Under the pieces are notes generated by a model. The model was given only the letters and a program-made list of their open reading frames with translations. It did not search any database and was not told the DNA's origin. Below are positions 8,857 through 22,070 of a stretch of DNA of 64,000 nt, in pieces. Source of the stretch: Thermosipho sp. (in: thermotogales) (GTDB taxonomy: Bacteria; Thermotogota; Thermotogae; Thermotogales; Fervidobacteriaceae); assembly GCA_017656345.1 (NCBI GenBank), contig JACDNZ010000007.1, positions 1 through 64,000 on the forward strand, written 5' to 3'. Both the position numbers and the translations under genes were made by a program. Position 1 is the stretch's first letter. Every line of letters starts with the position of its first letter.

Positions 8857-9504
8857 ATGTGTAGAATGATCGGCTTTTCTTTTTCAGATAACAAATATAT
8901 AGATGATTTATACAACATGTTAAAAGACATGGCAAAAAATGGAATTAAAAAACCGCATCCACACGGTTTTGGAATTTATGCCAAAAATGCTGAAGGTGAA
9001 ATTCTATATCATAAATTTGAGGAAACAATATATAACACCAATTTACAACTTCCTAAGTTAAAAATTGGAATCATGCATGCAAGAAAAGCTTCACCAAATT
9101 CACCAATTAGTTTTCTTCAATTACATCCTTTTATTGATGAAAAAGGTAATGTCTTCTGCCACAATGGAACAATATTTACCGCTGATAAAAATAACTTATT
9201 CAAAAGTGATAGTTACGAGTATTTTCAAAAAATAAAAAATTTTAAAAACAACGATGAACTAATCTGGAATTTAAAGAACTTTGTTTTAAACAATAAATTC
9301 ACTGGTGCTAATTTTTTGCTTATTAAAGAAGATAAACTATATGCATTTTGCTATTATAACTCAGAACCTGAATATTATACGATGTGGTACTCAGAAAATG
9401 TAGTCTCATCTGAAAGTCTTGGATACGGTTTTCAAAAAATGAACAAAGGTGAACTTTTAATTTTTGAAAACGGAACTTTAACTTTTAAAGAACTTGTTAT
9501 ATAA
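8857..9504 (+). CDS. class II glutamine amidotransferase (YafJ-like)
   Basis: The protein of 215 residues starts MCRMIGFS, so after initiator methionine removal Cys2 becomes the N-terminal nucleophile, as required for class II amidotransferases. HPHGFG, HARKASP and the FCHNGTIF segment complete the glutaminase fold. There is no synthetase or acceptor domain, as in the stand-alone YafJ/EgtC-like family, so the acceptor of the ammonia or the peptide substrate is unknown. It is co-oriented and tightly spaced with the phosphoesterase upstream. Confidence 0.88.
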   Translation: MCRMIGFSFSDNKYIDDLYNMLKDMAKNGIKKPHPHGFGIYAKNAEGEILYHKFEETIYNTNLQLPKLKIGIMHARKASPNSPISFLQLHPFIDEKGNVFCHNGTIFTADKNNLFKSDSYEYFQKIKNFKNNDELIWNLKNFVLNNKFTGANFLLIKEDKLYAFCYYNSEPEYYTMWYSENVVSSESLGYGFQKMNKGELLIFENGTLTFKELVI

Positions 9505-9518
9505 GATCTTTTAAGTGG

Positions 9519-9524
9519 TATAAT
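9519..9524 (+). promoter_or_regulatory. extended -10 promoter for leader peptide and corA-like gene
   Basis: A perfect TATAAT preceded by TGG forms an extended -10; no good -35 is seen at 17 bp. Transcription would begin near 9531, leaving about 29 nt before the leader ORF. Confidence 0.6.
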
Positions 9525-9559
9525 TTAGAAAGATTAAAAAAGCAGGAGGTGAAAAGGAA

Positions 9560-9619
9560 ATGAGCGGTGAAAGTTATACTAGTAGTTATTCGGAAGAACC
9601 GTTACCACGACCACCGTAA
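9560..9619 (+). CDS. 19-residue acidic/proline-rich leader peptide upstream of the CorA-type gene
   Basis: An ATG at 9560 lies 8 nt after a strong AGGAGGTG ribosome site (9544-9551) and opens a complete ORF ending with TAA at 9617-9619. The peptide reads MSGESYTSSYSEEPLPRPP, with an acidic pair followed by four prolines in the last six residues. It ends 22 nt before the ATG of a CorA-type magnesium transporter that has its own AAGGAGGT site. Known Mg2+-transporter leaders such as MgtL of Salmonella are also proline-rich and control elongation of the mRNA or translation. The leader role is inferred; the ORF and its ribosome site are seen. Confidence 0.65.
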   Translation: MSGESYTSSYSEEPLPRPP

Positions 9620-9641
9620 ATTAAAAAAGGAGGTATTAAGT

Positions 9642-10572: not shown

Positions 10573-10607
10573 AAATTAAAGGCTCCGTCGGAGCCTTTAA
10601 TTTTTGA
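10573..10607. terminator. bidirectional terminator between the corA-like and threonine aldolase genes
   Basis: AATTAAAGGCTCCG pairs with CGGAGCCTTTAATT, giving a 14-bp palindromic stem with T-runs on both strands. The aldolase stop codon lies inside the stem. Confidence 0.9.
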
Positions 10608-11619
10608 AAAATTCCTTTATTTTATCAACAACATAATCAATATCTTTCTTTTTAATCCAATAATGAGTTACAAACCTAAATATACCATTTTCTGATGGAT
10701 TTATTTTTATTTTATTAGTTAGCATATGCTTTATAAATTCTTCCTCAATAAATTCTTTTTTTATTCTAAAGAACACCATATTTATTTCTACTTCCTCAAG
10801 TATATCTATAAATCCCAATTTCAATAACTCATTTGCCAGATATTGTGCGTTTTCATGATCTTCATACAATCTGAATCTCATTTTTTCAAGCGCTATTATT
10901 CCGGCTGCGGCAATAATTCCAGCTTGTCTCATCCCTCCACCCATTATTTTTCTTTTTCTCCTTGCCTCTTTTATAAAATCCTTAGAACCTACCAACAAAG
11001 ATCCAATTGGCGCACATAACCCTTTAGAAAGGCAAAAGCTTACCGAATCAGCATATTTTGCAATTTCTTTTGGATCAATATCTAAAGCAACTGCTGCATT
11101 AAAAATCCTGGCACCATCAAGATGTATAGGAATATCATATTTATCGGCTATTGACTTAATTTCTTCAAAATTACTAAGTGGAATAACCCTTCCATTCGAA
11201 TGAGCATTTTCAAGACATATTAATCCTGTTCTCGGATAATGTATATCTTCAACCTTTCTTATTGTCTCTAAAACCTTTTCTGGAGGCAACATTCCTTTAT
11301 ACGTTTCAATTGTTCTAAGTTGAACTCCCGATATTATAGCTGAAGCACCTGCTTCATGCTGTACTATATGCGTATCTTCACCTAAAATTACTTCATTCCC
11401 TCTTTCACAATGTGTAAAAAGCGCTAACTGATTTGCAAAAGTTCCACTTGGTACAAAGACTGCATCTTCTTTTCCAAGAATCTCTGCTGCCATTCTCTCT
11501 AGTTTATTTACAGTAGGATCATCTCCATATACATCATCACCTACTTCAGCATAACACATTGCTTTTCTCATTTCTTCAGTAGGTTGAGTCACTGTATCAC
11601 TTCTCAAATCAATGTACAT
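10597..11619 (-). CDS. low-specificity L-threonine aldolase
   Basis: The 340-residue PLP enzyme of the beta-eliminating lyase family opens with DLRSDTVTQP and GDDVYGDDPTVN. HxDGAR (IHLDGARIFNA) supplies the PLP-ring ligands and SFCLSKGLCAP carries the Schiff-base lysine. It cleaves L-threonine or L-allo-threonine to glycine and acetaldehyde. The ATG at 11619 is preferred to the GTG directly before it because of the GGGGTGA site. It is the last gene of the long minus-strand operon starting at 17829, just after the RlmN-like radical SAM gene. Confidence 0.94.
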   Translation of the reverse strand: MYIDLRSDTVTQPTEEMRKAMCYAEVGDDVYGDDPTVNKLERMAAEILGKEDAVFVPSGTFANQLALFTHCERGNEVILGEDTHIVQHEAGASAIISGVQLRTIETYKGMLPPEKVLETIRKVEDIHYPRTGLICLENAHSNGRVIPLSNFEEIKSIADKYDIPIHLDGARIFNAAVALDIDPKEIAKYADSVSFCLSKGLCAPIGSLLVGSKDFIKEARRKRKIMGGGMRQAGIIAAAGIIALEKMRFRLYEDHENAQYLANELLKLGFIDILEEVEINMVFFRIKKEFIEEEFIKHMLTNKIKINPSENGIFRFVTHYWIKKKDIDYVVDKIKEFFKN

Positions 11620-11633
11620 CACTTTTTCACCCC

Positions 11634-18500: not shown

Positions 18501-19549
18501 TTCTAGGTGCTACCGGTTCAATAGGCATTCAAACTCTTGAAGTTATTGAAAAACTTGATAATTTCTATATTTCAGGTATTGTGTTCGGTAAAAACATAAA
18601 TTTAGCAAGAGAGATCATCAAAAAGCACAATATTGAGAATTATTATTCTCCATATTTCCCAACCTATAAGTTCTCAACTTTGGAAGAAATGCTAGAAAAA
18701 TTAAACCCGGATATTGTTGTAGCAGCAATCCCTGGTTTTGATGGATTAATTGCTATTTTACAATCAATTCCATATACAAAACGACTTGCACTAGCAACAA
18801 AAGAAGCACTTGTATGTGCAGGCCCATTTATAAAAAATGAATGTGAAAAACATAAAGTCGAATTAATTCCAATAGATAGTGAACATTCTGCTATCTTCCA
18901 ACTATTTGACGAAAACGTGGTTAAAATAATGATTACAGCTTCTGGTGGAGCTGTTAGAAATGTTAAAAAAAATAAACTATCTAAATTAAAACCTAACGAT
19001 ATTTTAAAACATCCTGTATGGAATATGGGTAAACGCATAACTGTAGACTCAGCTACAATGGTTAATAAGGCCTTCGAAGTTATGGAAGCATATGAACTTT
19101 TTAATATTGAAAATATCGATGTACACATTCATCCAACCGGTACAGTTCATGGAGCAGTATTATTAAATGATGGCACCGTTAAAATTCATTTTGGCTTTCC
19201 AGACATGAAAGTACCAATTGCGTATTCCCTCACATACCCGGAAAGAAAATTTAATAATCCAAAATGGCCCAAGTTTGATCCAAAAAACTTTGAATTTTAC
19301 AATGTGGATGAGGAAAAATATCCTGCATTCTTCTATGGCAAATCTATCCTAAAAGACCTTGCAAAAAGAATCGCATTCAATGCTGCTGATGAAATAGCTG
19401 TTCAAAGATTTTTAACTGAAAAAATTAAATTCCCACAGATTGCTGATATTATTATTAATACATGCGAAAACATTAGAGGAAATGTCAACTCAATTGATGA
19501 TATCTTTGAAATCGATAAAATTTCAAGAAATTTTGCTCAAGAAATTTAG
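18479..19549 (+). CDS. dxr: 1-deoxy-D-xylulose 5-phosphate reductoisomerase
   Basis: The 356-residue enzyme shows the NADPH-binding GATGSIGIQTLEV, LATKEALVCAG, the metal/substrate motif PIDSEHSAIFQ, and TASGGAVR. It converts DXP to MEP in the non-mevalonate isoprenoid pathway. Length is slightly below the typical 380-400. The start overlaps thiN. A promoter for the downstream cobalamin riboswitch lies over its final codons. Confidence 0.96.
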   Translation: MEKKSVVILGATGSIGIQTLEVIEKLDNFYISGIVFGKNINLAREIIKKHNIENYYSPYFPTYKFSTLEEMLEKLNPDIVVAAIPGFDGLIAILQSIPYTKRLALATKEALVCAGPFIKNECEKHKVELIPIDSEHSAIFQLFDENVVKIMITASGGAVRNVKKNKLSKLKPNDILKHPVWNMGKRITVDSATMVNKAFEVMEAYELFNIENIDVHIHPTGTVHGAVLLNDGTVKIHFGFPDMKVPIAYSLTYPERKFNNPKWPKFDPKNFEFYNVDEEKYPAFFYGKSILKDLAKRIAFNAADEIAVQRFLTEKIKFPQIADIIINTCENIRGNVNSIDDIFEIDKISRNFAQEI

Positions 19550-19560
19550 TGTGATATAAT
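19533..19560 (+). promoter_or_regulatory. promoter for the btuFC riboswitch transcript
   Basis: TTGCTC (19533-19538) and a perfect TATAAT (19555-19560) are separated by 16 bp, with the -35 inside the end of dxr. Transcription would start near 19567, 16 nt before the riboswitch P1 helix. Confidence 0.65.
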
Positions 19561-19582
19561 ATAGTAAAAATTAATATACTCC

Positions 19583-19729
19583 ACTTTTCACAAAAGGGAA
19601 GCCGGTGAAAATCCGGTACGGGGACGCCACCGTAACCGGGGACGAACCCCACAAAAGCCACTGGGCTAATGCCTGGGAAGGCGTGGGTAGTAGGATGATC
19701 CGGAAGTCGGGATACCTTTTGTGAAAAGT
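19583..19729 (+). promoter_or_regulatory. cobalamin (AdoCbl) riboswitch
   Basis: The conserved core is clear: GCCGGTGAAAATCCGG, GCCACTGGG, GGGAAGGCG and CCGGAAGTCGGGATACC. P1 is a perfect 15-bp helix between 19583-19597 and 19715-19729. The element lies between dxr and btuF and is followed by an intrinsic terminator, so B12 binding is expected to stop transcription of the uptake genes. Confidence 0.95.
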
Positions 19730-19737
19730 CGTGGAAA

Positions 19738-21708: not shown

Positions 21709-22070
21709 TGGTGGAGGCGGCGGGAATCGAACCCGCGTCCGAAAGTAGGTACCCCCGAGCTTCTCCGAGCGCAGTCCGTGTTTTAACTTTCGGATTTGAA
21801 GCGCCCACGGACAGGCTCTTCAAATCCTATCCTTCCTGAATATTCGCAACACCAGGCGGAAGGAAAACCTGAAGTTGCTAGGCTGGTTGTGTCACGCCCT
21901 AACCAGAACCCCAGCCAAATTCTGGCAGGACGGCAGCTTATCTATTAAGCTGCAAGAGCAAGTTCTTCGTTGGCACTTATCTTTTTTCCAGATTTTTACT
22001 GACGGGGAACCTGGAAAACCCCGGCTCGCTTCTCGGGGGCACCTACCCCCGTCGAAACCAGTTCGCCCCC
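21709..22070 (-). ncRNA. ssrA: tmRNA (transfer-messenger RNA)
   Basis: The 5' end GGGGGCGAACTGGTTTCGAC and the 3' TTCGATTCCCGCCGCCTCCACCA region form the tRNA-like domain, with 5' GGGGGCG pairing to CGCCTCC and an encoded CCA. The tag frame runs on the minus strand from 21974 to 21945 and reads ANEELALAA then TAA, the expected ALAA degradation end. Several pseudoknot arms lie between. Length is 362 nt. It releases stalled ribosomes with SmpB, which is not in this window. Confidence 0.97.

Follow-up and report, generated by a model that had tools for sequence, protein, structure and literature searches.

In the Thermotogota, a deep-branching phylum with no detectable M-box, most of the genomes searched have a short reading frame, conserved as coding sequence, that lies a small distance ahead of the gene for a main Mg2+ channel and typically ends in two proline codons and a stop (PP-stop). 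It accompanies either of two unrelated channel families, CorA and MgtE. The example from which we start is found in the window, a stretch of 64,000 nucleotides from a Thermosipho contig (JACDNZ010000007.1). The most likely reading, to which we give a probability of roughly 0.55, is that of a cis-acting leader peptide serving as a ribosome-based Mg2+ gate on translation of the channel gene. Most known cases of Mg2+ control by a leader peptide come from enterobacteria, and this family makes it testable whether a ribosome held at a Pro-Pro-stop reports Mg2+. The first-pass annotation knew of no report from Thermotogales, and our literature search agrees with it: in the literature searched, no leader peptide is described for corA or mgtE in Thermotogota, nor for corA in Bacillota, most subscription papers lying outside its scope, so that absence from print is unproven.

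The corA leader of Thermosipho

The complete ORF, strong ribosome site and nearby CorA gene described by the first-pass annotation are all borne out by the sequence as read (Table 1): the product of the gene 3' of the leader matches Pfam PF01544 (E 7e-54) and is the sole CorA match in its genome. A search of 103 Thermotogota genomes for MgtE found no match to an MgtE-type channel in the window genome; two weak matches were seen there, the best at E 5e-8, and the listed one spans query residues 180-260 only. corA probably does not begin at an in-frame GTG at 9567, from which the ORF would run through the leader and encode 333 aa.

Leader and corA probably share a promoter of their own, since the extended -10 TGGTATAAT precedes the leader. 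Read from the sequence, the -35-like and -10 elements of this putative promoter are 19 nt apart, and a consensus promoter scan restricted to spacings of 16-18 nt did not list it. The predicted leader 5' UTR is about 28 nt long, and GTGGTATAAT or near variants of it occupy the equivalent position in most same-family relatives. The probable corA terminator is common to a convergent gene (10597-11622) and lies below the criteria of the terminator scan, which listed none. Between leader and corA the scan likewise listed no intrinsic terminator or attenuator, and the gap has no room for one; an Rfam scan of the 64 kb window gave no element at the leader position and no M-box (RF00380). Elsewhere the window has an ordinary cobalamin riboswitch (19545-19737) and tmRNA gene (21709-22070). 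The gene directly upstream of the leader (8857-9504) resembles, by eye, a class II glutamine amidotransferase and has no Pfam match at E 1e-3.

Table 1. Features of the leader-corA locus in the window
Feature	Position	Strand	Remarks
Probable promoter	9494..9524	+	-35-like TTGTTA 9494-9499; extended -10 TGGTATAAT 9516-9524 (TATAAT 9519-9524)
Shine-Dalgarno (SD) of leader ORF, AGGAGGTG	9544..9551	+	strong
Leader ORF, MSGESYTSSYSEEPLPRPP-stop (TAA)	9560..9619	+	ATG at 9560, stop 9617-9619, 19 sense codons
Conserved core Pro-Pro-stop (CCA CCG TAA)	9611..9619	+	PP-stop in 65/73 leaders, ten Pro codon pairs
corA SD, AGGAGGT	9628..9634	+	begins 8 nt past leader stop
corA, CorA-type Mg2+ channel, 308 aa	9642..10568	+	ATG 9642, 22 nt past leader stop
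Probable intrinsic terminator of corA	10579..10605	+	AGGCTCC-GTC-GGAGCCT then T-rich run; read directly

Leaders on CorA and MgtE loci of Thermotogota

We searched the 103 Thermotogota genomes with the window CorA, took 43 percent identity or more as defining a close member (41 genomes) and read 220 nt upstream of each locus (198 nt for L116, at a contig end). An SD-led leader of the same kind is present at 33 of the 41 loci: 25 end in PP-stop, seven in PPL-stop and one in MPN-stop. All nine genomes of the window's family that hold this CorA have PLPRPP-stop or PLSRPP-stop endings. Seven loci of a Marinitoga type show MDYFSCSEDPLSRPP-stop or an almost identical peptide, one of them (L096) being the named Marinitoga lauensis locus L005; two leaders in f7 end in RPP-stop and one in g36 in LPP-stop. 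The Kosmotogaceae-like family f9 contributes fourteen genomes with MELYSSES-type leaders, six of them PP-stop, seven PPL-stop and one MPN-stop. Organism names come with loci L002-L006; Fervidobacterium, Pseudothermotoga, Petrotoga, Kosmotoga and Mesotoga are genus labels that we presume for relatives' genomes. Eight CorA loci (G024, G037, G086, G087, G088, G097, G098 and G099) have no leader within 220 nt, nor was one seen at the single locus examined, L090, of the more distant T. maritima CorA type.

A Fusobacteriales-labelled contig, L004, kept outside these counts, carries a CorA 69 percent identical to that of the window and the PP-stop leader MDCFNCDDDSKYKPP; either the bin is mislabelled or the gene was transferred. 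The 29 loci scanned in its order (96 genomes) gave no further PP-stop leader. At L246, L247, L251, L252, L257, L263 and L264, of the same order, SD-led short ORFs starting MDTYS or similarly (MDTSS, MDPYS) sit about 90-115 nt before the CorA match.

The first MgtE case, MDNCDSSKQKPP-stop in G072, came from the genome-wide pattern search described below; its TGA overlaps the SD of the downstream gene, an MgtE channel (PF01769, PF03448, CBS). At 45 percent identity or more, the same 103 genomes hold 48 MgtE loci in 46 genomes. With 330 nt scanned, 40 of these have a leader within 100 nt, every one ending in PP-stop and 28 starting with GTG or TTG; examples are MEYPSYSSNKPP, MESTSSSFSLPP, MESTSLPP, MDSTGSFFEFSDLPP, MEDPLSSYSNKPP and MEDYPGSRPP. 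At the other eight (G020, G022, G023, G057, G088, G100 and the first copies in G101 and G102) no leader lies within 330 nt. The earlier proposal of a coding leader, with acidic residues and prolines, ahead of a Mg2+ transporter is right, and the leader is conserved, being present at 33/41 CorA and 40/48 MgtE loci. It is not peculiar to CorA or Thermosipho, the same kind of leader standing on MgtE in genomes without this CorA.

The CorA subfamily and MgtE substitute for one another across genomes, occurring together in one genome only, G088 (Fisher p 7e-14), which has no leader on either gene. Since the leader is present with whichever channel a genome has, it follows function and not gene family. 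MESTSLPP stands on mgtE of G090, whose CorA is identical over 351 residues (100 percent) to the solved CorA 3jcf/2bbj, which we take to be that of T. maritima, a standard structural model. Judged by this CorA chain, T. maritima appears to have the 8-codon version on mgtE. This would rank among the smallest candidate regulatory peptides and should work there near 80 C. A second MgtE type, at L226 (G065) and L230 (G057), has leader ORFs of another kind, MSNEDSVPDSSCIYKG... and MEEDLPDSYKII...; as read by eye, the SD of these ORFs could pair with a stretch ahead of the mgtE SD.

Conservation of the peptide

Over both channels, 65 of 73 leaders end in PP-stop. Among these 65, ten Pro codon pairs occur, and each of the three stop codons is used (TAA 38, TAG 20, TGA 7); because the Pro codons vary synonymously, the peptide is what is kept. 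In seven aligned groups, variable sites are distributed 19/14/42 over codon positions 1/2/3 (chi-square p 1.3e-4, only a rough value since sites share ancestry). These figures point to selection at the level of the peptide. The first-pass annotation named, as what would refute it, an ORF not conserved in length, position and proline content; position and the terminal Pro-Pro are conserved, and length is not, ranging from 8 to 19 residues.

The C-terminal Pro-Pro-stop is the invariant-like element kept across the phylum, although it is not absolute, given the seven PPL-stop leaders and one MPN-stop leader of f9. Ser makes up about 24 percent of the peptides and Pro about 22 percent; most have two or three prolines only, and each of the 45 distinct peptides has 1-3 acidic residues (D/E), as in EEPLPRPP of the window. 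Acidic residues and prolines had been taken as the key: both are present, but the acidic ones are few and what is kept is the Pro-Pro-stop. The residue preceding PP in 43 distinct PP-stop peptides is L (16), R (15), K (7), Q (4) or P (1).

These data bear on two other explanations. The stretch could be an RNA element, with CCNCCN acting as an anti-SD and the peptide incidental: leader and surroundings are alike in the T. maritima-like genus and in f2, and a CCTCC that could pair with GGAGG occurs in 7 of the 65 PP leaders. The remaining 58 have other Pro codons, without CCTCC, and the third-position bias and the constant frame with start codon and SD also speak against this explanation, which we regard as already disfavoured and quite improbable; the variety of the Pro codons rules out an anti-SD function as what is conserved in them. 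Conserved peptides beside transporters can also bind them, as MgtR does, and the leader might be a stand-alone small protein acting on the channel or elsewhere. This we consider highly improbable for a peptide that can be as short as eight residues (MESTSLPP), has no membrane segment, is barely alignable between families outside PP-stop, and in one sequence type serves two unrelated channels.

Specificity of the pattern

Among the 83 SD-led short ORFs (7-25 codons) of the window, the leader itself is the only one with a PP ending, and at 61 other loci an in-frame PP-stop was found in 1 of 352 such background ORFs. A genome-wide search for the SD-ATG-short-PP-stop pattern, limited to ATG starts, returned 85 matches in the 103 genomes, 25 of them in frame; 23 of the 25 are CorA or MgtE leaders. 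The other two in-frame matches are MTGVGDLSSPP in G020, which is not a Mg2+ leader, and MKKLLLGIEPP in G064, which we discarded as lying, by our own reading, out of frame inside an integrase-like gene. The window genome has a single occurrence of the pattern. A stricter pattern applied to 20 genomes of the family matched the CorA leader a single time per genome in the nine that have this CorA, along with four out-of-frame matches inside a gene; PP-pattern matches in an aminotransferase gene of genus g4 were dropped, being out of frame and within the gene. The rarity of the pattern, its genome-wide linkage to CorA and MgtE and the background counts lead us to reject a chance ORF.

Spacing and RNA structure

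At 59 of the 73 loci, that is all those outside f9, leader stop and transporter start lie 11-33 nt apart (median 24). Counted from the leader stop, the SD of the transporter begins at -1 to 21 nt (median 11), and at 46 of the 59 it does so within 12 nt. A ribosome is described as covering about 12 nt beyond the codon that it is reading (PMC4833913); with the SD so near, a ribosome held at the leader stop would cover or abut it. The first-pass annotation had placed the leader in the MgtL class. A short acidic and proline-containing leader on a Mg2+ transporter does fit that class, but there is no long structured leader, and the 11-33 nt gap suits direct cover of the transporter SD better than MgtL-style RNA structure or Rho termination. 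Conserved feature and geometry point to a ribosome that arrests at termination and directly covers the ribosome site of the channel gene.

Short stop-to-start gaps have been proposed to favour reinitiation (PMC4833913), and ribosomes might simply stop at the leader and reinitiate on the channel gene, with the leader acting as an enhancer that senses nothing. The observed gaps exceed the 10-11 nt peak discussed in that source; a conserved PP-stop would be unneeded and slows release, and restriction to Mg2+ channels would be left unexplained. We hold this to be improbable.

The fourteen f9 loci (L109-L122) have a gap of 71-90 nt. Folding predicts their corA SD to be buried, with a mean unpaired probability of 0.09 vs 0.42 in the others. 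Covariation in the hairpin is weak (of 16 consensus pairs one is changed on both sides, and changes are mostly one-sided); that it sequesters the corA start and SD is moderately supported and leaves the sign of regulation unsettled. Since the gap is too long for direct cover and the hairpin would bury the corA start, coupling in f9 would have to run through RNA structure. A ribosome at the f9 stop would get in the way of the outer part of this hairpin; taken alone, that would favour 'stall = on'. The SSES codons of the leader may offer the outer strand of the hairpin a further pairing partner, and a three-way RNA switch is possible in this family.

A candidate Mg2+ gate

Linkage to the two channel families, coding conservation and spacing are observed; for the Mg2+ gate, we infer a stall at Pro-Pro-stop, its response to Mg2+ and its sign, namely that the stall turns channel synthesis off. 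The ribosome translating the leader would meet two prolines directly before the stop codon, where peptide release would be slow. Held with the stop codon in its A site, it would cover or abut the channel-gene SD with its front, and little channel would be made. At low Mg2+, a 70S ribosome carrying this short acidic, Ser/Pro-rich chain would come apart, before or at the Pro-Pro-stop; its departure would free the channel SD, and the channel would be made. Ribosome destabilisation is reportedly the subject of work by Chadani.

A review describes release after C-terminal Pro-Pro as poor and Pro-Pro C-termini as underrepresented in bacteria (PMC3985003), and the enterobacterial acidic/proline leaders of mgtA, corA and mgtB are described as responding to Mg2+ (PMC11552253, PMC8092293). 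We propose Mg2+ as the signal because of these precedents (mgtL, corL, mgtQ) and because none of the 103 Thermotogota genomes gave an M-box (RF00380) match, while control genomes did. Several points count against the gate: the sequence leaves the sign of regulation unfixed, 8 of 41 CorA and 8 of 48 MgtE loci are leaderless, and acidic content is low in the shortest leader, MESTSLPP. EF-P is present as well and also counts against it, although EF-P relieves Pro-Pro synthesis and not necessarily release.

The leader might instead sense proline, prolyl-tRNA, EF-P or release-factor status, so that the channel is tuned to translation capacity. EF-P reportedly affects mgtA, the sole invariant-like feature is the Pro-Pro-stop (65/73), and we consider this unlikely but not negligible. 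Related Salmonella leaders are described as responding to charged tRNA-Pro (mgtP, PMC8092293). However, most of the peptides offer only two or three prolines, and the genes that carry the leader are those of Mg2+ channels from two unrelated families, not proline or translation genes.

Comparison with known leaders

MgtL and CorL, which precede mgtA and corA in Enterobacteria, are likewise short ORFs with proline and acidic codons before a Mg2+ transporter gene, and where they are translated efficiently, expression of the transporter is believed to be low (PMC11552253). They are described as having a long leader, in which control is exerted through RNA structure and Rho-dependent transcription termination (PMC11552253), unlike the Thermotogota leaders with their 11-33 nt gap, lack of a terminator and C-terminal PP-stop, which is not among the key residues of MgtL/CorL. 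The window leader has in common with them a short ORF upstream of a Mg2+ transporter, whose translation is deduced from coding conservation, and acidic and proline codons (EEPLPRPP); a long structured region allowing transcription termination is absent from its 22 nt gap. By analogy, the leader would work like MgtL or TnaC, but it is not an MgtL member.

Salmonella mgtQ, an intergenic leader before mgtB, is another tiny ORF with acidic codons ahead of a Mg2+ transporter, and it acts on mgtB translation through ribosome destabilisation and SD access (PMC8092293). It differs in its alternative RNA hairpins and in a Pro codon that, according to that source, is not needed as an amino acid (PMC8092293). 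Most Thermotogota leaders have little room for such hairpins; f9 is closer to mgtQ.

The Pro codon directly before the stop, found in the 65 of 73 leaders with PP-stop, is shared with TnaC and other arrest-at-termination peptides, including uORF2 of human cytomegalovirus gp48. TnaC inhibits release-factor action and regulates its downstream gene in cis; it needs tryptophan and acts through Rho, with another ligand and another downstream gene (PMC3985003), and arrest in Thermotogota is predicted. RAPP/RGPP arrest peptides also lie ahead of a regulated gene and have an Arg/Pro-rich core at the C terminus that ends in Pro-Pro; they are described as longer and often secreted or membrane peptides (PMC12992588), unlike the Thermotogota leaders of 8-19 residues. 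Arg precedes PP in 15 of the 43 distinct Thermotogota PP-stop peptides, the others having Leu, Lys, Gln or Pro, and the window peptide ends PRPP and not RAPP or RGPP.

In vertebrates, uORF2 of the Mg2+ channel TRPM7 ends a few nt before the channel start, is better translated at high Mg2+ and represses the channel; its mechanism is eukaryotic scanning, and its peptide sequence is described as not conserved (PMC4227784). A gamma-proteobacterial corA RNA motif has been described upstream of corA in Gammaproteobacteria (PMC6429828).

Acidic-proline leaders on CorA of Bacillota

Leaders of another kind precede corA in Bacillota and are possibly a separate MgtL-like class. In the family of L027 (Mesobacillus; Bacillaceae), 101 genomes were searched and the best 30 loci examined (L271-L300): at all 30, the stretch of about 260 nt ahead of corA contains an ORF that has [DE]P[DE]P close to its start, for example MGYSKEPDPD and MSYSIDPDPS. 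These motifs resemble the EPDP that MgtL contains. The corA SD is mostly paired, with a mean unpaired probability of 0.06 over the ten loci where an SD pattern was found.

A joint reading, which we hold only tentatively, is that Thermotogota gate one main Mg2+ channel, of either unrelated family, by dedicated termination-arrest Pro-Pro-stop leaders. As an alternative to the M-box, such leaders would use the stability of the ribosome to sense Mg2+, at temperatures up to those of hyperthermophiles. These would be one of several leader solutions, the different [DE]P[DE]P leader before CorA in Bacillaceae and some Clostridia being another, and the Tyr-Ser/acidic-Pro stretch that they share, YSDEPLP in Thermosipho and YSIEPDP in Bacillaceae, may be a motif by which nascent chains of both kinds sense Mg2+.

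More distant CorA loci were also surveyed (L007-L081; 75 loci, reduced to 73 by two without upstream sequence). An ORF with [DE]P in its first 12 residues was seen at 25 of the 73 (L014-L079) vs 4 of 437 background short ORFs.
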